Positions 4,902 to 53,551 of a stretch of 64,000 nucleotides of DNA are shown one piece after another. Source of the DNA: a virus. The stretch is from positions 95,594 through 159,593 of the IMG/VR virus record IMGVR_UViG_3300023296_000874, one strand, 5' to 3'. The translations under genes were made by a program, and so were the position numbers. Each line of letters begins with the position of its first letter. Position 1 is the first letter of the stretch. The notes beneath the pieces are model-generated. The model saw only the letters and a program-made list of their open reading frames with translations. It did not search any database and was not told where the DNA came from.

Positions 4902-5654
4902 CTACGGAGTATCGCCCCAAGGAGGAGCATCACCAACGGTAGGCTGCGTCTCTCCAATCACCATGCCGGGATCGGTACGCTCGTCTACGGGCTCCATGGC
5001 GTCGTCTGGCAAGTCGAACGGTACGTCCCGCCCCGGTGCCCCACCACCGCCACTAAAGCCGCCTCCGTAGCCACCACCGCCGCCTCCACCACCTGGGAGG
5101 CTAAAGCCCCCAGCGTTCTTGCTGCTCCAGGAATCAATGAACGCCTTCATGGGCTCAGTGAACTTGGTTCCGAGGTTGTAAGCCAGCAGTCCAAGGTTGG
5201 TCAGGAACAGCATGGATAGCACGCCAAGGTACAGCGTAGCAAGCGGGCTGTTCACGTCCTGAGAGGTACGCAGCGAAACCATCGCCATCACACACATCGT
5301 GAGGAACGTCACCATCGTGAGCCAGAAGCTCACACGTCCAAGGCTGACCTTCCACCTGCCGTCCTTGCTCTTCTCATAGAACAGAGGGGCAATGCGGTCA
5401 AACCTCTTTCGAGGACGGTGTTCAGCACCCGCACCGGGTCCGTCGATGTCGTTGTGGTCGTCGAAATGGAGCGGTGACTCTCGACGCGCGGTGATGACCG
5501 GGGCGCGAGAAGTTGTCGCTCGGGGAGCTGACAACTGTTGACGTGTCTTCTTCACCGCGAAGACCACGGCGAGTACTACAAGAAGGATGAGTGCGGAAAC
5601 CAGGCCGGTTCCAAGCCAGGGCACACCGAACAGATCCCAGTGGATAAAGTCCAT
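4902..5654 (-). CDS. three-pass membrane protein with Gly-rich tail
   Basis: Hydrophobic segments at about residues 13-34 (GLVSALILLVVLAVVFAV), 110-128 (FWLTMVTFLTMCVMAM) and 138-160 (TLYLGVLSMLFLTNLGLLAY) are separated by a basic linker. The C-terminal tail contains a glycine run (GGGGGGGGYGGGFSGGGG) and ends acidic and Pro-rich. The gene lies directly downstream of the endolysin, so a holin role is possible. The length (250 aa) and the low-complexity tail are atypical for a holin, so the name is left open. The ribosome site before the ATG is weak (AGGT). Confidence 0.8.
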   Translation of the reverse strand: MDFIHWDLFGVPWLGTGLVSALILLVVLAVVFAVKKTRQQLSAPRATTSRAPVITARRESPLHFDDHNDIDGPGAGAEHRPRKRFDRIAPLFYEKSKDGRWKVSLGRVSFWLTMVTFLTMCVMAMVSLRTSQDVNSPLATLYLGVLSMLFLTNLGLLAYNLGTKFTEPMKAFIDSWSSKNAGGFSLPGGGGGGGGYGGGFSGGGGAPGRDVPFDLPDDAMEPVDERTDPGMVIGETQPTVGDAPPWGDTP

Positions 5655-23995: not shown

Positions 23996-24012
23996 TACAA
24001 ATGCAGTATGAC
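23996..24012 (-). promoter_or_regulatory. putative late promoter, copy 3
   Basis: Plus-strand TACAAATGCAGTATGAC; on the minus strand GTCATACTGCATTTGTA, 40 nt before the start at 23956. It sits in the divergent gap between the 690-aa gene and the plus-strand cargo island. Confidence 0.6.
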
Positions 24013-24075
24013 AGCATTTCCATTCTGACTTCCAGCACCACATCACCGTTATATGAGAAATCGGAGGAACGACAC

Positions 24076-24507
24076 ATGCCCAAAACCCTCGCCGTCTATG
24101 CAGGCGCATTCCTGACCTCCCGTGGCAAGACCGCGCTGCGCCTTTGGTGGCAAGCCAACGTCAGTCCGCTGGAGAGTAAGAGCTTCGGCCATCACATGAC
24201 CATCAAGTTCAAGCCCTCAGATGAGGAGCTGTACGAGTTGATGGAGCGCCTCGGTGGCGTAGGTGAGACCGTTCAGTTGCGCATCGTGGGCTACGCCGAG
24301 GACGCGGACCTGGGAGTGCAGGCGGTGGTTGTGGAAGGCGTCTACTCCACCAACGACAACCCCCACGTCACTGTCGCCACGGACGGAGCCAAGCCTTTCC
24401 TGAGCAACAAGCTCCTCAAGCGGGGCTATACCGACGTGCGCGGAGCCGCCCTCGAAGCTCGGCTCGGATACTTCGACGGACGCGCCGACCGCTTCGAGCT
24501 GCCTTAG
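24076..24507 (+). CDS. 2H phosphoesterase family protein
   Basis: The start MPKTLAVYAG has a good ribosome site (GGAGGAACGACAC before ATG). The 143-aa protein shows the two HxT motifs that define 2H phosphoesterases: HMT at H40/T42 (FGHHMTIKF) and HVT at H97/T99 (NPHVTVAT), 57 residues apart. The family includes RNA cyclic phosphodiesterases and ligases, fungal tRNA-ligase-type phosphodiesterases and the phage anti-CBASS enzyme Acb1, which cleaves cyclic nucleotide signals. Size fits any of these. It is the first gene of the plus-strand island. Substrate cannot be decided from sequence alone. Confidence 0.8.
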   Translation: MPKTLAVYAGAFLTSRGKTALRLWWQANVSPLESKSFGHHMTIKFKPSDEELYELMERLGGVGETVQLRIVGYAEDADLGVQAVVVEGVYSTNDNPHVTVATDGAKPFLSNKLLKRGYTDVRGAALEARLGYFDGRADRFELP

Positions 24508-24510
24508 TAT

Positions 24511-24545
24511 TCCACACTATCAACGGCTTTCCGTTGTAGAATGGA
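24511..24545 (+). terminator. stem-loop after the 2H phosphoesterase
   Basis: TCCACACTATCAACGG (24511-24526) pairs imperfectly with TCCGTTGTAGAATGGA (24530-24545) around a short loop, with two mismatches and one bulge. It starts 4 nt after the stop codon. No U-tract follows. It may end or stabilise the transcript, separating this gene from the next. Confidence 0.4.
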
Positions 24546-24677
24546 GTACTGGCATTCTGTCATCACACGAGAAGAGACTATTCCCACTCCCTGCGAAAAA
24601 GACGACCCCTTCCCTGAGAATACGGGCACATGGTCCGTTGAGTCTCTGAACCCCTTTCGGAGACCCAATACCCAACC

Positions 24678-25682
24678 ATGATACTCCTTGTAATCGCTGT
24701 AACCGCAGTTGTACTTGCCTCGGCGCTCTGCTCCGGCTCTGAAGCCGCCTTGATGGCAATGCCCAACGTGCGTGTTCGCCAGCTCGCGGAGGAAGGTGGC
24801 TCAACAGCCGCCATACTGCTCCGGTTGAAAGACAACCTCGACAGGCCCATTGCTGCCATCGTGGTTCTCAACAACATCGCCAACATCGTCGGCTCCATCG
24901 TGGTTGGTGGGATTGCTACTGACGTGCTCGGAAGTGCCTACCTCGGTGCCTTCTCAGCCGTGTTGACCTTCGCCATCATCCTCTTCGCAGAGATCATCCC
25001 CAAGAGCATCGGCACCAACTACCCGGAGCGCATCAGCCTCCTGATTGCACGACCGCTCAGTGCGATCTCGTGGTTGCTGACCCCGGCACTCTGGATGCTC
25101 GAACAGGTGACCAAGCTCATTGGCGGACCCAACGGTGCTACGGCAGCGGACGAGGCTACCTTGCGCTTCATGGTGCGGGAAGCCGGACGTGAGGACCAGA
25201 TTGAGGAGGATGAGCGCGACATGATCCTCCGGGTGTTCAGCCTCAACGACCTGACCGCCAGCGACATCATGACTCCCCGTACCGCGATGACCTACCTCCG
25301 CGCTGACCTGACTGCCAAGGAGCAGGAGGCCCAGATCAAGGCGTCACAGCACTCCCGCATCATCGTTGTGGGTGAGACGCTCGACGACGTGGTGGGCGTG
25401 GTGATGCTGAGGGACTTGCTCCTCTCGCTCATGAATGGCGGACTGCTACCGAAGCCTGTGCCTGCCGCCTTTGTCAGCCCCGACATGCCCGCCGATGAGC
25501 TCATGCGGCACTTCCTACCCGCGCGGAACCACATGGCTCTCGTGCGGGGAGAGTACGGCGCGGTACATGGCTTGGTGACCCTCGAGGACGTCCTTGAGAT
25601 CGTTGTTGGCGAAGAGATTGTTGACGAGACTGACCGTGACGACGACATGCAGGCTGTTGCACGGGACCGCGCTACATCCTGA
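24678..25682 (+). CDS. CNNM/CorB-type membrane protein: DUF21 plus CBS pair
   Basis: The N-terminal half is a DUF21 (CNNM) transmembrane domain: segments at about 2-22, 56-78, 90-110 and 122-142, with SGSEAA near residue 20, NNIANI near 66 and EIIPKSIG near 107, all typical of the family. A Bateman CBS pair follows (DLTASDIMTPRTAMTYL to GAVHGLVTLEDVLEIVVGEE, about 190-320). The protein stops at 334 aa, so the CorC/HlyC C-terminal domain of longer relatives is missing. Bacterial relatives export Mg2+/Co2+; some are labelled hemolysin-like. Its presence inside a phage late region is unusual. The ribosome site is distant (GGAG 16 nt upstream). Confidence 0.92.
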   Translation: MILLVIAVTAVVLASALCSGSEAALMAMPNVRVRQLAEEGGSTAAILLRLKDNLDRPIAAIVVLNNIANIVGSIVVGGIATDVLGSAYLGAFSAVLTFAIILFAEIIPKSIGTNYPERISLLIARPLSAISWLLTPALWMLEQVTKLIGGPNGATAADEATLRFMVREAGREDQIEEDERDMILRVFSLNDLTASDIMTPRTAMTYLRADLTAKEQEAQIKASQHSRIIVVGETLDDVVGVVMLRDLLLSLMNGGLLPKPVPAAFVSPDMPADELMRHFLPARNHMALVRGEYGAVHGLVTLEDVLEIVVGEEIVDETDRDDDMQAVARDRATS

Positions 25683-25738
25683 ATAGCCTCTGAGTGATCA
25701 GGCGCTCCGTCCGTTACCTGTGCAGCACGGAGCACAAC

Positions 25739-25960
25739 ATGGCCCTCGCCCAGCGACAAGACAGCACCACCGACCAGATCGAAACCGTCATCGAAGAGGC
25801 GCGCAAGCAGGACTTCCCCGTGGCATGGCTCGAGGACTGGGAAGACTGGACGCGCTCAGAGAGCGCGGACCTCGTGGGGTGCTACTGCATCATCGCTGAT
25901 GAGGCCGGGTGCTACGACGCCAAGGACGCCATCATGCGCAAGTGGGAAGCTGCCTCATGA
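25739..25960 (+). CDS. small acidic protein, unknown function
   Basis: The start MALAQRQDSTTDQIE is preferred over an upstream ATC-region start because GGAG lies 8 nt before it. The 73-aa product has a Trp-rich acidic segment (VAWLEDWEDWTRSESADLVG) and CYCIIADEAGCY. It overlaps the next gene by 4 nt (ATGA), so the two are translationally coupled. No family is recognised. Confidence 0.7.
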   Translation: MALAQRQDSTTDQIETVIEEARKQDFPVAWLEDWEDWTRSESADLVGCYCIIADEAGCYDAKDAIMRKWEAAS

Positions 25961-26244
25961 TCGGACGCACCATCACCTGCTACCCGATGGACGGGACCAA
26001 GCCCCAGTTCGAACTCGAAATCACGAACAGTGGGCGCGGGCTCATTGATCTTCGTGTCAAAGGGACAGGCGACGGTGTGAACTGGACCGGATTCCAGTTC
26101 GACGGCTACAACCGACCGCATCAGTTCAAACCCGAGTGGCTGCATACAGTCCGCTTCCACGGCTACCTCATCAAGGGCAGCGGCAAAAACCGCGACGTGA
26201 TGGAGGTGGACTTCTGGCTGAAGGAGATAGACAGTGCCGACTGA
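25957..26244 (+). CDS. small beta-rich protein, unknown function
   Basis: The 95-aa product starts MIGRTITCYPMDGTK at the ATGA overlap with its upstream neighbour and overlaps the radical SAM gene by 11 nt. It is predicted beta-rich (FELEITNSGRGLIDLRVKG, WTGFQFDGYNRPHQF) with a basic C-terminal part. Tight coupling on both sides suggests that it works with the radical SAM protein, perhaps as a partner or substrate; this is inference from layout only. Confidence 0.7.
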   Translation: MIGRTITCYPMDGTKPQFELEITNSGRGLIDLRVKGTGDGVNWTGFQFDGYNRPHQFKPEWLHTVRFHGYLIKGSGKNRDVMEVDFWLKEIDSAD

Positions 26245-27148
26245 GACCATCGCAAACCCCAACTTCAGCATCGTCCTACCCGGAGCCTGTCAGGCTCGTT
26301 GTGGGTTCTGCTATTGGAAACGCTCGGACAATGAGCTACGCCTCAAGGCGTGGGCATCTGAGCTGAACCGCGTGCTGGGAGCCCTGCCCCCACAGTTCAA
26401 GACCCTCTCCCTCACCGGAGGAGAGACTGTACTCAGCCCCTACCTCAAGCGTGCGCTGAGTGTGATCGAGCTCCACAAGGAGCGCTTCGACCGAGTGGTG
26501 CTGACCACCAACGGGGGGTCTCCCAAGAACTTCGACAAGCTGAGGGACCTGTTCGACGGGGTGGTGGACCACATCAACCTCTCACGTCACGCCCTCAACG
26601 AGCTTGAGAACCGTGCGGCCTTCGGAGACTGCAAGACCATCAACTGGGAAGAGACCGAGACCTTCTGCACCAAGATGGCTGAGGTTGGAATCGACGTGAC
26701 CATCAGCGCCGTGCTCGGCATCTGGTGGGGAGAGATGATCCTCGGAGAGTGGGTAGGAGCCGACAAGGCATACACCCGCGCATTCCTCGCCAAGTGCAAG
26801 AGCGTTGGAGCCGGAGCGGTATTCCTCCGCAAGCTTCACGGCACGCTCGACACTCACCCGTTGCAGGACAACTTCAGCGAAGAGGCCACGGTGGAGCATG
26901 GCTGCCCGACGTGCAAGGACTTCGTCATGACCATCGACGGGGTGCGCGTGCATTGGAAGTACAGCACGCTCGAGCCAAGCGATGATCTCGGCCTTGTGTA
27001 CGAGGTGATTCTGCAGCCCGACGGTAGGATGACTACCGGATGGACCACCGACGAGCCCTACGAGCTCCCAGTGCCCGAGCCAGTGCGGGCCTCGGTGGCA
27101 AGCTCTACATCAGGGTGCGGAGGTACTACTCGGAGCTGCGGTAGCTGA
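26234..27148 (+). CDS. radical SAM protein, probably frameshifted near its C-terminus
   Basis: The 304-aa frame starts at GTG with GGAGA 6 nt upstream. It shows the 4Fe-4S/AdoMet signature CQARCGFC (C19, C23, C26), the GGE motif (LTGGETVLSP) and LTTNG. A second Cys pair (CPTC) lies near residue 224. Substrate is unknown; it is not clearly QueE or viperin. The last 22 codons have atypical third positions, whereas another frame reads GLGGKLYIRVRRYYSELR and stops at 27144, with high GC at third positions. One extra G in the GGG run at 27087-27089 would join the two, so a real indel, a sequencing error or programmed slippage is likely. Confidence 0.88.
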   Translation: MPTETIANPNFSIVLPGACQARCGFCYWKRSDNELRLKAWASELNRVLGALPPQFKTLSLTGGETVLSPYLKRALSVIELHKERFDRVVLTTNGGSPKNFDKLRDLFDGVVDHINLSRHALNELENRAAFGDCKTINWEETETFCTKMAEVGIDVTISAVLGIWWGEMILGEWVGADKAYTRAFLAKCKSVGAGAVFLRKLHGTLDTHPLQDNFSEEATVEHGCPTCKDFVMTIDGVRVHWKYSTLEPSDDLGLVYEVILQPDGRMTTGWTTDEPYELPVPEPVRASVASSTSGCGGTTRSCGS

Positions 27149-47566: not shown

Positions 47567-50304
47567 CAGACCCTCTGGCTACGTGAGTATTCTTGGAAGG
47601 CTCGGCCCATCATCCGCTTGATGTCATCAATGCCGTAGACGTTGCCGTGAACGTGGAAATGGAATCCGCCCGGTGCATTGCCGCCGCTGAGAGGCACAAC
47701 AGCCTCAGGTCCCGCCTCACCAATGAGCGCCATCGTGGGGCGGTTGACAATGCCTCCCTCTGCCATGGGGTTAGCCAAAGCTGCCCAGTACGAATTGATT
47801 GCTGCTTGAGCAGCGTGCGCCTCGGGGGTGTCGTTGATGAGCCCCCTGTCGCCTGCGTACATGAAGGCCATCGAAGGGGTGTTCGCCTTCATCGCAAGAG
47901 GGTGCTGGTCTCTCCAAGACGCGAACATGGGGTCATCTGTCGTGACGTCGTCGAGCGTCCAGCCGCTTGCAGAAAGAGCAGCAAGAGCGGAGTCCCGAGC
48001 CGTGGTGCTCAGGTCGCCCATGTTGTGCGCGGCCTGCACTCTCTCTTCAGCCGCCGCCCGCGCCTCGGGTCCTCTGGTCGGGTTGATTGATCCGCCTACG
48101 CTCAGGGGTGCTCGAAGTGCGCCGGATTCGTGAGTGAGGGATCCACCAGGAGCTCCACCAGCAAGATTGTCTCGGCCCGTACCAAGCCTGGAGTCAACCG
48201 CTGTATCAACGCTACCGCTCGAGAAGCTCGATCCACCGCCGTATGCGTCAACGAAATTCTGGAAGTCAGTGTCGCCGTAACCCCTTACAGCCTCTTGCTC
48301 CTGCGCAACATCTTGTCGCATCTGGAGCAGCCGTTCTTGACGCTGAGGGCTTGCGTCCTGGATCTCGTTGTCAATCTGACGCAGAACCTTGTCGTAGGCG
48401 TGTACGGCCTTCTGCTGGTCACTGCCGAAGGCGGATACCAGGATGTCGTACATGCCAACGAGTACGTCGTAGAGCTTGCTCTTGAGCCACTCGGTGATGT
48501 TCTTCAGTAGGATGTCGATCGAGGTGGTCTCGCGGAGCATTTCCTGCGCAAGTCGGATGTCCTCAGCTACCTCATTAGCCATGGGAGCCATCGATTTGTT
48601 GTGCATGTCCTCAATGGCTTCAGCAGCGCCGCCGTTCTCCTCAATGATGGCTGCCATGGCTGCGAGGTTGGTGTTCACCTCGTCCGTGGAGCTGCCCATA
48701 ACGCCCAAGCTCTTGAGGAGCTCGGTGTTCTCAGCGTTCACATTGATCAGATCTGAGTAGTTCAGGTCGTCCACGCTCTTGCCGAGCACCTTCGCTACCG
48801 CAGCCATGCGGGTCTCAAGGTTGGCTGCCTCACCGAGGAGTCCGCCTTCGAAGAGGTGCATCTGCTCCAACAGGCCACCGTTCAGAGCTTCTTCAATCTG
48901 CTTCCGTTCCATCTCAAGGCGACGTCGGAGGGTGGGGTCAAGTCCGCCGTCTGCCAGGCGTCCTTCTACACGCTCCAACTCGTTGCGTGCGATCCGAATG
49001 GCCTCTGCCTCACCAACCCAGGCAAGCACTGTCCGGGCGTTCTGCTCGTCGAGCTTGCCCATGATGCTTGCCGCTGCCGTAGCCGCCTGCTCAAGCCCGA
49101 GCGGGCCGGAGCGTACAATGTCAGCGAGGATGTCGGACTGAGCAGCGAGGGATCCGTTCATCAGGCCGAGCTGAGTGTTGAGGCTCTGTACCTTGCCGAA
49201 GAACACTCCGGCACTGATCCCGGCTCGCTGGGCTCCTTGATCAATGGCTGCGAGTGAGTCGCGCGCCTGTCCGAAGGAGTAGCCCAAGTTGAGCATGATG
49301 TCGCCCATGAAGGAGCCAATGTCCCCCACGCTGGTCTTGAACTGCGTCGAGTAGGTGCGGGTCGTGTCAACGATGTCCCGTGCGGTGTTGCCCACGCCCT
49401 GTACGTCACGCCCAAGCTGACGGTTCACCTTGCCCAAGGTGACGCCAGATGCGGTGAGTGCGTTCATAGCCTCGTAGGCTTCCTCAGTCGACATGCGCCA
49501 CTTGAAGTTCGTCTGGATGTTCTCCATGAACTCCTTCCGAAGAACCTTCACTCCCTCCCCCACGTCGAGGAAGCCCGCACCCATCAGGTCGGTAGCTGAG
49601 ATGGACTGCGTCATCTGAGTGTTCAGCGCCTTCATCTCACGCTGAATCTCCAGCGCCTTCTTGGCAAGCACTCCCAGCGCGGCCACGGCTCCCATGACAA
49701 CGCCAGCCATACCTGCGAACTTGCCGAGCTTTCCAATGGCTCCACCGGCCTTGCCCATCAGCTCACCGGCCTTGCCTCCTACCTTGGTGCTGCCCTTTGA
49801 AAGAGCGCCGCCCAACTGCTCAGCCCGGTCCTTGAATTGCCCGCCACGCTTGCCACCACCGCCACCACCGCCACCACTGTCGCGAGATGCACGCTTCTCG
49901 AGCTTGATGCGCTCCTTGAGGCCGTCAAGTTCCTGGTCGATGATCTGCTGAGTGGCTTTGGCGCGGTCCTCGAAGTTGTCTGACTGGATCTTGGCGATGC
50001 GGTCAACCGCCTTCTTCATCGCCTTGATGTAGCCCTTGGAACCCTTCTGAGCAGCGTCCTGAATGTCGTCACCGAAGTTGCCCGCTGCACGCTTGAACAT
50101 GCCATCGAACTCACGTGAGAGGTGCTCGGCTGTGGCATCACCAACCTTGTTGACCTCCTTCATGTGCTTCTTGAGTTCCTTGCTCGCCTCACGATAGCTC
50201 TGACGCCAGAACGCTCCACCGAACACTTCCTCCTGCGCCTTTTGGACGCGGCGGTAAGCGGCTGAGTTCAGCGCAAGTTCGATTTCGTGGCGTGTCTTAG
50301 GCAT
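47566..50304 (-). CDS. tail tape measure protein
   Basis: The 912-aa protein begins with a long coiled coil (LKKHMKEVNKVGDATAEHLS), then a Gly/Lys-rich stretch and a hydrophobic segment (KFAGMAGVVMGAVAALGVLA, about residues 193-214). More helices follow, and it ends with the tape-measure hallmark ALIGEAGPEAVVPLSG. By the usual rule of about 1.5 angstroms per residue the tail tube would be near 135-140 nm long. Two probable chaperone genes lie directly upstream, as is standard. Confidence 0.92.
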   Translation of the reverse strand: MPKTRHEIELALNSAAYRRVQKAQEEVFGGAFWRQSYREASKELKKHMKEVNKVGDATAEHLSREFDGMFKRAAGNFGDDIQDAAQKGSKGYIKAMKKAVDRIAKIQSDNFEDRAKATQQIIDQELDGLKERIKLEKRASRDSGGGGGGGGKRGGQFKDRAEQLGGALSKGSTKVGGKAGELMGKAGGAIGKLGKFAGMAGVVMGAVAALGVLAKKALEIQREMKALNTQMTQSISATDLMGAGFLDVGEGVKVLRKEFMENIQTNFKWRMSTEEAYEAMNALTASGVTLGKVNRQLGRDVQGVGNTARDIVDTTRTYSTQFKTSVGDIGSFMGDIMLNLGYSFGQARDSLAAIDQGAQRAGISAGVFFGKVQSLNTQLGLMNGSLAAQSDILADIVRSGPLGLEQAATAAASIMGKLDEQNARTVLAWVGEAEAIRIARNELERVEGRLADGGLDPTLRRRLEMERKQIEEALNGGLLEQMHLFEGGLLGEAANLETRMAAVAKVLGKSVDDLNYSDLINVNAENTELLKSLGVMGSSTDEVNTNLAAMAAIIEENGGAAEAIEDMHNKSMAPMANEVAEDIRLAQEMLRETTSIDILLKNITEWLKSKLYDVLVGMYDILVSAFGSDQQKAVHAYDKVLRQIDNEIQDASPQRQERLLQMRQDVAQEQEAVRGYGDTDFQNFVDAYGGGSSFSSGSVDTAVDSRLGTGRDNLAGGAPGGSLTHESGALRAPLSVGGSINPTRGPEARAAAEERVQAAHNMGDLSTTARDSALAALSASGWTLDDVTTDDPMFASWRDQHPLAMKANTPSMAFMYAGDRGLINDTPEAHAAQAAINSYWAALANPMAEGGIVNRPTMALIGEAGPEAVVPLSGGNAPGGFHFHVHGNVYGIDDIKRMMGRAFQEYSRSQRV

Positions 50305-50309
50305 CTATC

Positions 50310-51890
50310 TCACTTCTTCGCTTTCTTGTTGGTGAATGAGGTCTCGCTACCGGCGAAGAAGTCATCCTCCCCCGGTACTTCAGTGTAGGTGGTTCCTGTC
50401 TTCCTCACGCTTACTCGTTTGCCCTGAACGCGTCTTCCTTGCTCTCGTTGCTGCTCAGGTCCGTAGTTGTGGCGTGTCAACCGCTTGCTCGGTCCACCGT
50501 GCGAGATGTCTCCACCTTTCTGAGACACTCCACCCGCATTCGCATACACAGGCACTCGATCCCCGTTGGGGAGCTCCTTCCAACCCGTTTGCTTGCCCCG
50601 TCCGCGCTGAGTCGGGGCCGTGTCAGGCCCCCTGGCGGCTTGCGGCGGTGTGGGCGGTTGGTTGCCCGGAGTAGGAATGCGCGTGTTCCTGGCGGGCCTA
50701 CGGCTTACCTCTGGTGCAGGCTGACGTCCAGTGGGTCCCTGTGGTCCGGTTGCCAGGTCGAGACGGTCAGGCGGTCGTCCATCTTCACGAGCAGCCATAC
50801 GCTCCTCAAGGGCGGCGAGCTCTTGGAGCTCACCCGCAATCTCATCCCGGTCTTGCTTGTACGCCTTCGCGCGCTCGTACCGGCCTTCGCGGGCGCGGCG
50901 GGAGAAGTCCAGGGATTCCTGAGCCTGACGCTTGCGCATATCGTCTACTTGGTCCTTGGTGAATACCTTCACGAATCCATCTCCGTTTGCGATCTGCGCT
51001 GCGAGCTCCTCGTCAGTGAGGTCCTCGCGTTCGGTGCGAGCGGCGTCAATACTTTCCATTCTAATAGCAGCCATCTGCGCTTCGCGTTGTTCACGGCGCT
51101 TGCGCAAGGAAGTCTCGTACTGCGAGATGATCTTGTCGTGAAGGTCCTGCTTGCCCGTGATGTCGGACTCAAGCTGAGCACGGAGATCAACGACGGTCCT
51201 ACGCTCAATGCGCTGAGGCCCTTCGTACTCCTGTCCCAGTCTGACGCGCTCACGCTCTTCCATCAACCGCTTGAGGCGTGCCGCGTCTCGGGTCTCAATC
51301 TTCTTGACACCCTTGGAGTTGGCTGCCGAGGCAACGAACTTGGCGAACCCCCAGAGCATCTCAGCTTCGGTCCGGTTGTCTTCTTCCCCGTTGAGGTAGG
51401 CCCAAGCAATCTGATGTGAGTTGAGGCCCAGACTCTGCGTCCCCGCAATGCCTGTGAGCATGGGGTCGTTGATGCTTCTGCCCTTGTAGCTCCCCCACAT
51501 GGATCGGGAGCTGGCCTCATAGCTGAAGGCTTCCAGACGCATCAAGGCGAAGTCCTGGGCCTTCTGAAGAACCAGTACTTCGCCCATGAGTTCGGCGCGC
51601 AGGTTTTGAGGTACTTCCCGCATTTCGGCTACAAGCTCGGACAGGTTGCCGGGGCGTCCGGCAATGACGTTCTCACCCTCAAGTAGGTACAGAGCGTAGG
51701 CCAGGATCAACGCCTCGAAGATCTCCTCGTACTCTGGACTGCTCTTGAGTGGTGTGCGCTCACGAATAGCGTCCAACTCCCTGGGATTCAGGGACTTGAC
51801 GACGAGATACACGTCACCGAGCTGTACCTTTGTGGAGAGGAACCCACGGAAAATCAGCTCTTCGACGTCCTTGTGACGCCGTTCGCTCAC
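50310..51890 (-). CDS. probable tail assembly chaperone 2 (long form)
   Basis: The 526-aa protein has a helical N-terminal half (YEEIFEALILAYALYLLEGE; SHQIAWAYLNGEEDNRTEAE) followed by a very long charged coiled coil (about 215-360) and a basic, Pro-rich, disordered tail. It lies between the short chaperone and the tape measure, where gpT/GT-type products are found. The start is GTG, overlapping the upstream stop as GTGA, so translational coupling replaces the usual programmed frameshift. A minor virion role is an alternative. Confidence 0.7.
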   Translation of the reverse strand: MSERRHKDVEELIFRGFLSTKVQLGDVYLVVKSLNPRELDAIRERTPLKSSPEYEEIFEALILAYALYLLEGENVIAGRPGNLSELVAEMREVPQNLRAELMGEVLVLQKAQDFALMRLEAFSYEASSRSMWGSYKGRSINDPMLTGIAGTQSLGLNSHQIAWAYLNGEEDNRTEAEMLWGFAKFVASAANSKGVKKIETRDAARLKRLMEERERVRLGQEYEGPQRIERRTVVDLRAQLESDITGKQDLHDKIISQYETSLRKRREQREAQMAAIRMESIDAARTEREDLTDEELAAQIANGDGFVKVFTKDQVDDMRKRQAQESLDFSRRAREGRYERAKAYKQDRDEIAGELQELAALEERMAAREDGRPPDRLDLATGPQGPTGRQPAPEVSRRPARNTRIPTPGNQPPTPPQAARGPDTAPTQRGRGKQTGWKELPNGDRVPVYANAGGVSQKGGDISHGGPSKRLTRHNYGPEQQREQGRRVQGKRVSVRKTGTTYTEVPGEDDFFAGSETSFTNKKAKK

Positions 51891-52651
51891 TTCCGAATGC
51901 TCTGCGGTGCCTCGTCAACAACCTCCGGCTCGGGAGCCAAGGGGACGGGGTATACCTCAGGATTCTCCTCACGCTCACGGGCAAGCTGCTCGTCAACGGG
52001 ATGTACTTCTTCGGCGGGCTCAGGAGCAGGAGCAAGGGCTTCCTCACGCAACCGGATGGCGCGGAGAAGAGCGTCGCTGCTTGGGTTGTCCAGCGTACCA
52101 CCGCCGAACACTCGTACAAGCTCATCGTCGAGCTTGACGTCACGTTGCTGCGCCTGCTGCACAAGGTCGCGGAGCTCGTCAGATAGCGCCTGCACCTTCA
52201 TCTGAAGGGAGGTGTCGCCAAGCTCAACCTTGATGGTCTTGGAGAGGCTCTTGTCGATGTCGTCCATCAACTGCGCGTAGCGGGCGAACAGGGTGTCGAT
52301 CACTACGTCGGGCCACGAGTCTACAATCTCACGCATGAAGATCGCACGGGGCAGCTTGATGGGCTTGCCGTTGCCGAGTACCTCCCCCGTTTCAATGTGG
52401 GTGAGGTTGCGTAGGTCGATGGGCTCACCTTCCGCTGGCTGGATCCACTTGATCGCATACGCGAGGGATTCGAGCTTGGTGTAGTGGCCGAGGCTCTTGC
52501 CGAGGTGTTCCCGTAGGTAGTCGGCAATCGCTTTGTCATCCGCCCCAGTCAGGGAGGAGATCACAACCAACATTCCATCGGGGAGCTGAAGAGGCTCGGT
52601 TTCCCGGTAGTTGGCGTTCTTGAGCTTTCTCAGCTTCGTCGCGATAGACAT
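51887..52651 (-). CDS. probable tail assembly chaperone 1
   Basis: The 254-aa protein has a beta-hairpin N-terminus (PLQLPDGMLVVISSLTGADD), a helical middle (REHLGKSLGHYTKLESLAYA; VVIDTLFARYAQLMDDIDKS) and a Pro/Glu-rich tail. This layout, between tail tube and tape measure, matches T4 gp26-type / gpG-like chaperones that coat the tape measure before tube polymerisation. AGGAG lies 6 nt before the ATG. Confidence 0.7.
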   Translation of the reverse strand: MSIATKLRKLKNANYRETEPLQLPDGMLVVISSLTGADDKAIADYLREHLGKSLGHYTKLESLAYAIKWIQPAEGEPIDLRNLTHIETGEVLGNGKPIKLPRAIFMREIVDSWPDVVIDTLFARYAQLMDDIDKSLSKTIKVELGDTSLQMKVQALSDELRDLVQQAQQRDVKLDDELVRVFGGGTLDNPSSDALLRAIRLREEALAPAPEPAEEVHPVDEQLAREREENPEVYPVPLAPEPEVVDEAPQSIRK

Positions 52652-52879
52652 GGTCTACTCCTATGCCGCGACGAGGACGAGTAGATCAGGGGTTCCGGCA
52701 ATGCCGGGATGTGGGTCTGATACTCATCTTCGTTCGTGTTTGGATTTGATTTACTCTGGTCAAACCAGAGGACGCACTACGTGAGATGGTTTAGTTCTGA
52801 TCTGATCTGCGATTCTTTGTATCTGATTTGACGAACCGTGCGGCATCCTACTTCCTAAGAAGTAGGATGCCGCTCAGGA
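52652..52879 (-). other. 228-nt intergenic leader between tail tube and chaperone genes
   Basis: No gene is seen. On the transcribed strand it carries a long hairpin (52841-52872), a perfect 7-bp stem CTCTGGT/ACCAGAG with loop CAA (52754-52770), a CCGGC/GCCGG stem near 52695, and repeated ATCAGATC / TCAAATCAGAT words. It would be both the 3' end of the tube mRNA and the 5' leader of the chaperone mRNA. Such a gap could let the abundant tube protein be made in excess over the chaperones. Confidence 0.6.
52841..52872 (-). terminator. perfect 14-bp hairpin after the tail tube gene
   Basis: CGGCATCCTACTTC (52841-52854) and GAAGTAGGATGCCG (52859-52872) are exact reverse complements around a CTAA loop. 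It lies 7 nt after the tube stop codon. No U-tract follows on the transcribed strand, so it may attenuate transcription or protect the mRNA 3' end rather than act as a simple terminator. Confidence 0.6.
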
Positions 52880-53551
52880 TCATGCGAGGGGGAAGCGGTC
52901 GGAGCCGAGCTGGTCAGCGAACGGGTTGTTGCCGCTGTCGAGGAACTCGCCGTACTCACCGTCGAAGTTGGGATCGAGGATGTCGCTCACCATGATGCTC
53001 ACGCTCTCCGCTACTGCGGTTCCCTCGGAAGGGAAGTCAGCCGAGTAGTCGTTCATCCAGCAAGCCTCGTAGAGGGTCACCAGAGCAAACAGCCCGGAGT
53101 CAGCATGTGAGGTAGCAGCAGAGAACTGAAGCTCGGCGGGTCCGAGGTGGTTCGTGGTCGGGAACTCTTGGTTCACGAGCTCACTGAACACGATCTCCTG
53201 CTTGATGTCGAAGGGCCAGCGGTGGTGCTTCAAGGAGCGCACCATTCCGTCAATGCCACCTGCGTAACCGAACACCTGGAAGATGTTGGCCAGGTAGAGC
53301 ATCGTGCGCTCCACCGAGAGGGTGACGGGGTCGGTGGCGCTCGGGATGAGCTCCGCAACCTGGTCTCCGTAGCCAACGCCCCGGATTGGGTCAACGGCTC
53401 GGGATTCCGACATGGAGAAGTTGGTCATCACGCCGATCTGAACCATCTGGTTCTGAGCCACAGCGGGTGCCCAAATCTTGTTCTTGGAGCTTACGACGGC
53501 CCGTGTGTTGGGCGTCGCGCCTTCGCGGTATACATAGGAGGTGGTCTGCAT
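52880..53551 (-). CDS. probable tail tube protein
   Basis: The 223-aa protein lies between sheath and chaperone/tape measure genes, where tube genes are found, and is flanked on both sides by long non-coding leaders, as for a highly expressed protein. The sequence is beta-rich with strands such as MVQIGVMTNFSMSESRAV and VTLSVERTMLYLANIFQV, and a central FGYAGGIDGMVRSLKHHRWP. GAGG lies 8 nt before the ATG. The assignment rests on position, size and leader structure rather than on a recognised motif. Confidence 0.6.
   Translation of the reverse strand: MQTTSYVYREGATPNTRAVVSSKNKIWAPAVAQNQMVQIGVMTNFSMSESRAVDPIRGVGYGDQVAELIPSATDPVTLSVERTMLYLANIFQVFGYAGGIDGMVRSLKHHRWPFDIKQEIVFSELVNQEFPTTNHLGPAELQFSAATSHADSGLFALVTLYEACWMNDYSADFPSEGTAVAESVSIMVSDILDPNFDGEYGEFLDSGNNPFADQLGSDRFPLA

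Follow-up and report, generated by a model that had tools for sequence, protein, structure and literature searches.

A phage gene for a probable RNA end-healing 2H phosphoesterase of the CNPase/tRNA ligase kind

The window analyzed here is a 64-kb stretch (positions 95594-159593) of the 257,533-base virus record IMGVR_UViG_3300023296_000874. It carries, on the plus strand at 24076-24507, a gene for a small protein with the two HxT motifs of 2H phosphoesterases. We find that the gene product is probably a stand-alone 2',3'-cyclic phosphodiesterase of the branch that includes CNPase and the CPD domains of tRNA ligases, acting in RNA end-healing. Most likely, it is a member of an already known kind of RNA-repair enzyme, distinct from Acb1, the phage nuclease directed against the cyclic oligonucleotide-based antiphage signaling system (CBASS). 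The gene and its features are as follows.

24076..24507, plus strand: 2H phosphoesterase gene, probable CNPase/tRNA-ligase-CPD branch (open reading frame; PF08302 in 27/28 family members; AlphaFold2 pLDDT 91.4; Foldseek)
24061..24075, plus strand: Shine-Dalgarno region of this gene, containing GGAGG (seen in the sequence itself)
24190..24216, plus strand: motif 1, H39-H40-M-T-I-K-F-K-P47, with predicted catalytic H40-x-T42 (conservation)
24364..24372, plus strand: motif 2, predicted catalytic H97-V-T99 (conservation)
24394..24417, plus strand: P107-x-x-S110-N111-x-L-L114 signature after motif 2 (conservation; inside the PF08302-matching stretch)

The gene, its motifs and the predicted fold

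The reading frame comprises 143 codons and a stop, and its translation begins MPKTLAVYAGAF. An alternative in-frame ATG at 24001 would give a protein of 168 amino acids; the ATG at 24076 is preferred because GGAGG sits just upstream of it. Codon-position GC contents (0.66/0.43/0.80) resemble those of the neighboring phage genes. Promoter and terminator scans scored no better than shuffled sequences.

The 143-residue protein contains H40-M-T42 and H97-V-T99, spaced 57 residues apart. The first-pass annotation had taken these motifs to define a 2H fold. On its own, such a pair is weak evidence for a 2H enzyme, since the G+C-rich window yields many by chance: of its 195 stop-to-stop frames with 100 or more amino acids, 18 hold H-x-[TS] pairs 50 to 75 residues apart. 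The assignment is carried instead by conservation in 28 sequences and by the predicted fold, and both bear it out. Scans of IMG/VR recovered 11 and then 33 loci of relatives, and a single contig with a relative (L046, from an Actinomycetota metagenome-assembled genome) was found among 84,980 bacterial and archaeal genomes and included in the alignment source. The final alignment holds the window protein and 27 relatives that are 23-47% identical to it. H40, T42, H97, S110 and N111 are invariant throughout, T99 (replaced once by serine) and P107 are present in at least 90% of the sequences, and residues 39-47 do not vary among the ten nearest relatives of the window protein. The alignment marks the serine-asparagine pair that follows motif 2 as characteristic of the family. 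The AlphaFold2 model of the window protein is confident (pLDDT 91.4, pTM 0.86) and places both motifs on strands (residues 40-45 and 97-102). The predicted architecture is thus an alpha/beta 2H fold with the motifs on its central strands.

CNPase and tRNA ligase domains, not Acb1, as the closest known relatives

The family resembles the CPD domain of fungal tRNA ligase (Trl1). Pfam tRNA_lig_CPD (PF08302) is matched by 27 of the 28 family members at E values up to 1, the best being 6.8e-9, and two relatives, L029 (30.6 bits) and L008 (26.0 bits), exceed the curated cutoff of 23 bits. The 2H gene is the only PF08302 match in the entire record, and a search of 14 control genomes with this profile returned zero matches. 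What is shared with the fungal domain is the signature around and after motif 2. The phage protein differs in that it stands alone, with ligase and kinase encoded by separate genes, in its length (143 amino acids against a profile of 250 positions), and in scoring below the cutoff.

Predicted structures point in the same direction. When the model of relative L029 (pLDDT 95.2) was compared with the PDB, mouse CNPase catalytic-domain structures filled 46 of the first 47 ranks (E 2.1e-5 to 8.8e-4). The fungal RNA kinase entry 6u05 followed at rank 49 (2.1e-3) and the RICH protein at rank 50, and no Acb1 was among the top 50. The CNPase catalytic domain and RICH are the best solved-structure matches of this model (TM-score 0.62-0.73 by query length) and share its HxT pair; the phage protein differs from them in being about 70 residues shorter, only 12-16% identical and stand-alone. 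The top matches of the window protein's own model in BFVD are proteins of Cafeteria roenbergensis virus (771 amino acids), Sylvanvirus (292 amino acids) and Marseillevirus LCMAC202 (765 amino acids), at E 5.5e-5 to 1.2e-4; the LCMAC202 protein is named an RNA ligase. Behind these giant-virus matches, the best Acb1 (RisingSun) ranks eighth at 5.6e-3. Against the PDB, the window model finds weak matches only. Confidence in a CNPase/CPD placement is accordingly greatest for the family as a whole; for the window protein the placement is indirect, the CNPase matches having come from the L029 model.

The protein recurs in other phages. It matches phrog_36523, a family of unknown function, at E 1.8e-4 over residues 32-116, a stretch that spans both motifs, which the two have in common. 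Hypothetical proteins of Bacteroides crAss-like and DAC phages and of Salicola phage SCTP-2 fit the family profile when scored directly (E 2e-23, 1e-21 and 4e-16). This link was obtained via relative L044 and the family profile; a tblastn search of the window protein against annotated phages returned nothing significant. Likewise, no meaningful match emerged from sequence searches of the PDB with the window protein and two profiles.

The first-pass annotation had also proposed an Acb1-like anti-CBASS enzyme, a reading that these comparisons do not support. Phage T4 Acb1 (PF23474) belongs to the same 2H superfamily and is of similar length, and its H44 and H113 are 69 residues apart (PMC9117128), in agreement with the spacing of about 69 given in the first-pass annotation. 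However, the window protein shows no significant sequence match to it. Against a profile built from nine Acb1 sequences it scores -1.4 bits, and a Pfam Acb1 search with it gave no match, where T4 Acb1 itself scores 2.7e-60. Only one of the 28 family members, L044, matches Pfam Acb1 (2.2e-4), and hhalign relates Acb1 to the family of the window protein with a probability of only 9.5% over 42 columns, which is not a significant profile similarity. Acb1 stacks bases on Y12, W74, F107 and W147, contacts adenine through E141 and closes a lid formed by residues 145-152 (PMC9117128). Of these base-contacting positions only Y12 has an aligned counterpart, Y8, and E141 cannot be aligned. The residue six positions before H97 is nonaromatic, and there is no tryptophan after residue 25, so that the window protein is without counterparts of the base-clamping W74 and W147. 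Its chain stops at residue 143, ten residues past the final strand, and has neither the EPLxxxW motif conserved in Acb1 nor the C-terminal lid. By sequence, the window protein does not appear to be a member of the Acb1 family.

RNA-repair genes, proposed mechanism and alternatives

Three further genes of RNA repair are found in the same record.

Own record 49352-50323, minus strand: polynucleotide kinase-phosphatase (AAA_33 1.4e-12, PNK3P 1.1e-10)
Own record 51987-53174, minus strand: RlaP (1.1e-16)
Own record 188892-189914, plus strand: ATP-dependent RNA ligase (RNA_ligase 1.9e-10)

The ligase shares 39% identity with a phage protein annotated as RNA ligase. This set is the RNA-repair complement described in a survey of jumbo phages, in which 2H proteins, alongside PNK-HAD and RlaP, were proposed to open 2',3'-cyclic ends ahead of sealing by ATP-grasp ligases (PMC7824862). 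The 2H phosphoesterases of that survey (e.g., QDH83605.1) share the proposed repair role with the window protein.

Several relatives carry domain fusions. In L044, a P-loop kinase and the 2H domain occupy one frame, and ligases of the Rnl1 and Rnl2 types are encoded no more than 6 kb away. One open reading frame of L001 (71-4741) combines 2H, PolyA_pol and HAD_SAK_1 domains, while topoisomerase IB is joined to 2H and HAD_SAK_1 in L019 (3817-6954) and to 2H in L008 (3660-8477). In the crAss-like relative PhiCrAssBcn2, a TROVE gene lies three genes downstream of the 2H gene. Phage CPD-like domains thus occur joined to a variety of partners, namely kinase, HAD and nucleotidyltransferase domains. 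Together with the family profiles, the structure comparison and the repair genes of the same phage, these fusions favor the RNA-repair alternative that the first-pass annotation had named. Ligase co-occurrence in relatives is supporting evidence only, because it is seen in a minority of records, many of them fragments, and there is no background rate for comparison.

Two features of these contigs stand apart. The giant open reading frames of L008, L019 and L001, all on environmental phage contigs, contain long low-complexity stretches and are possibly polyproteins. In L044, an in-frame TAA lies at the kinase P-loop (5478-5493), which may reflect a sequencing error, a real interruption or recoding.

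From these computational observations of family, fold, motif conservation and repair-gene co-occurrence, we infer the substrate, regiochemistry and role in infection. The protein would be a metal-independent 2H enzyme, in which H40/T42 and H97/T99 hold the 2',3'-cyclic phosphate of the RNA and open it, with H40 and H97 providing general acid-base catalysis. Its substrates would be the ends left where abortive-infection-type ribonucleases of the host have cut RNA, most likely in tRNA anticodon loops. Yeast and plant CPD domains open the cyclic phosphate to a 2'-phosphate and 3'-OH (PMC3400036); by analogy with these domains and with CNPase, the phage enzyme would yield the same product. In the steps that follow, the phage kinase-phosphatase would make the ends ready for joining, nucleotides that were lost may be replaced by RlaP, and sealing would fall to the ATP-dependent RNA ligase.

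Several observations weigh against this reading. T4 Pnkp can remove a 2',3'-cyclic phosphate itself (PMC3400036), so a separate cyclic phosphodiesterase could be redundant, and a search of the record for the 2'-phosphotransferase KptA found none. The 2H gene lies about 70 kb from the repair genes, in a small island of plus-strand genes flanked by tail genes, and RNA ligases of the searched families are present in only a minority of the relatives' records, many of which are fragments. The window protein itself reaches only 19.9 bits on PF08302, under the 23-bit cutoff, with only the motif-2 half covered. Its model gives weak matches only in the PDB, including LigT, YjcG and 2',5'-phosphodiesterases, and CNPase, like Acb1, is absent from its top 50. 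The phage kinase-phosphatase, if T4-like, could also open cyclic phosphates. The two enzymes may therefore overlap in function; otherwise the 2H enzyme may produce a 3'-phosphate on which the phosphatase acts, or its 2'-phosphate may persist. We consider it very unlikely, though conceivable, that fungal-type healing operates here within a T4-type pathway, such that an unremoved 2'-phosphate at the mended tRNA junction blocks re-cleavage by a host anticodon nuclease that needs the 2'-OH.

Other activities can be weighed against RNA end-healing. An Acb1-like anti-CBASS nuclease would degrade cyclic di- or trinucleotide signals, using the 2'-OH to attack their 3'-5' bond. Such an activity would fit the shared superfamily and size, the Pfam Acb1 match of L044 and the RisingSun Acb1 in BFVD, and LigT-like phosphodiesterases outside Acb1, such as that of pigeonpox, do cleave cyclic GMP-AMP (PMC11410667). 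Yet the family matches CPD in 27 members and Acb1 in one, the profile and hhalign scores are poor, the spacing is 57 rather than 69, the tryptophan clamp and lid have no counterpart, and L044, the most Acb1-like domain, is itself fused to a P-loop kinase near RNA ligases. We regard this activity as unlikely. Similarly improbable is that the substrates are small molecules such as mononucleotides or Appr>p instead of RNA 3'-ends. 2H enzymes do act on such molecules, the jumbo-phage survey proposes as much for phage 2H proteins (PMC7824862), and a PARP-like gene stands beside the phage RNA ligase; the kinase, HAD_SAK_1 and nucleotidyltransferase domains fused to relatives, however, act on RNA ends. 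That the motif pair is coincidental and the protein no 2H enzyme at all, as the frequency of such pairs in the window would allow, has next to no probability: conservation of both motifs in 28 sequences in practice refutes it, the fold is confident, and 2H proteins dominate the structure and profile matches.

This protein recurs among phages; its Bacteroides and Salicola phage members are listed as hypothetical, and the PHROG that it matches has no assigned function. With RNA end-healing as the preferred role, it gains a likely function of that kind in place of a possible anti-CBASS assignment. The regiochemistry of this 2H enzyme also becomes a direct, testable question, because the same genome encodes a kinase-phosphatase of a type which, in T4, can open cyclic phosphates unaided.

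Genomic neighborhood

The plus-strand island (24076-27148) begins with the 2H gene and is flanked by minus-strand tail genes. A gene for a CNNM/CBS membrane protein, two small open reading frames and a radical SAM gene follow in that order. None of six island and flanking proteins was matched in the flanks of the 2H relatives. Searches of the whole record found no HAD_SAK_1 domain, Rnl1-type ligase or RtcB, and ARAGORN detected no tRNA gene across its 257 kb, which also encode several RNA-repair enzymes.

Other genes of the island and of the repair loci are listed below.

Window 24678-25682, plus strand: CNNM/CBS membrane protein, CorC/CNNM-like (PF01595 1e-42, CBS 5.9e-10, phrog_10948 3.1e-52)
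Window 26234-27148, plus strand: radical SAM protein (PF04055 3.7e-12), which closes the island
Own record 50987-51973, minus strand: ribose-phosphate pyrophosphokinase-like gene, flanked in the repair cluster by RlaP and the kinase-phosphatase
Own record 187781-188446, plus strand: PARP-like ADP-ribosyltransferase (PF00644 5.9e-16), with the RNA ligase about 450 bp downstream
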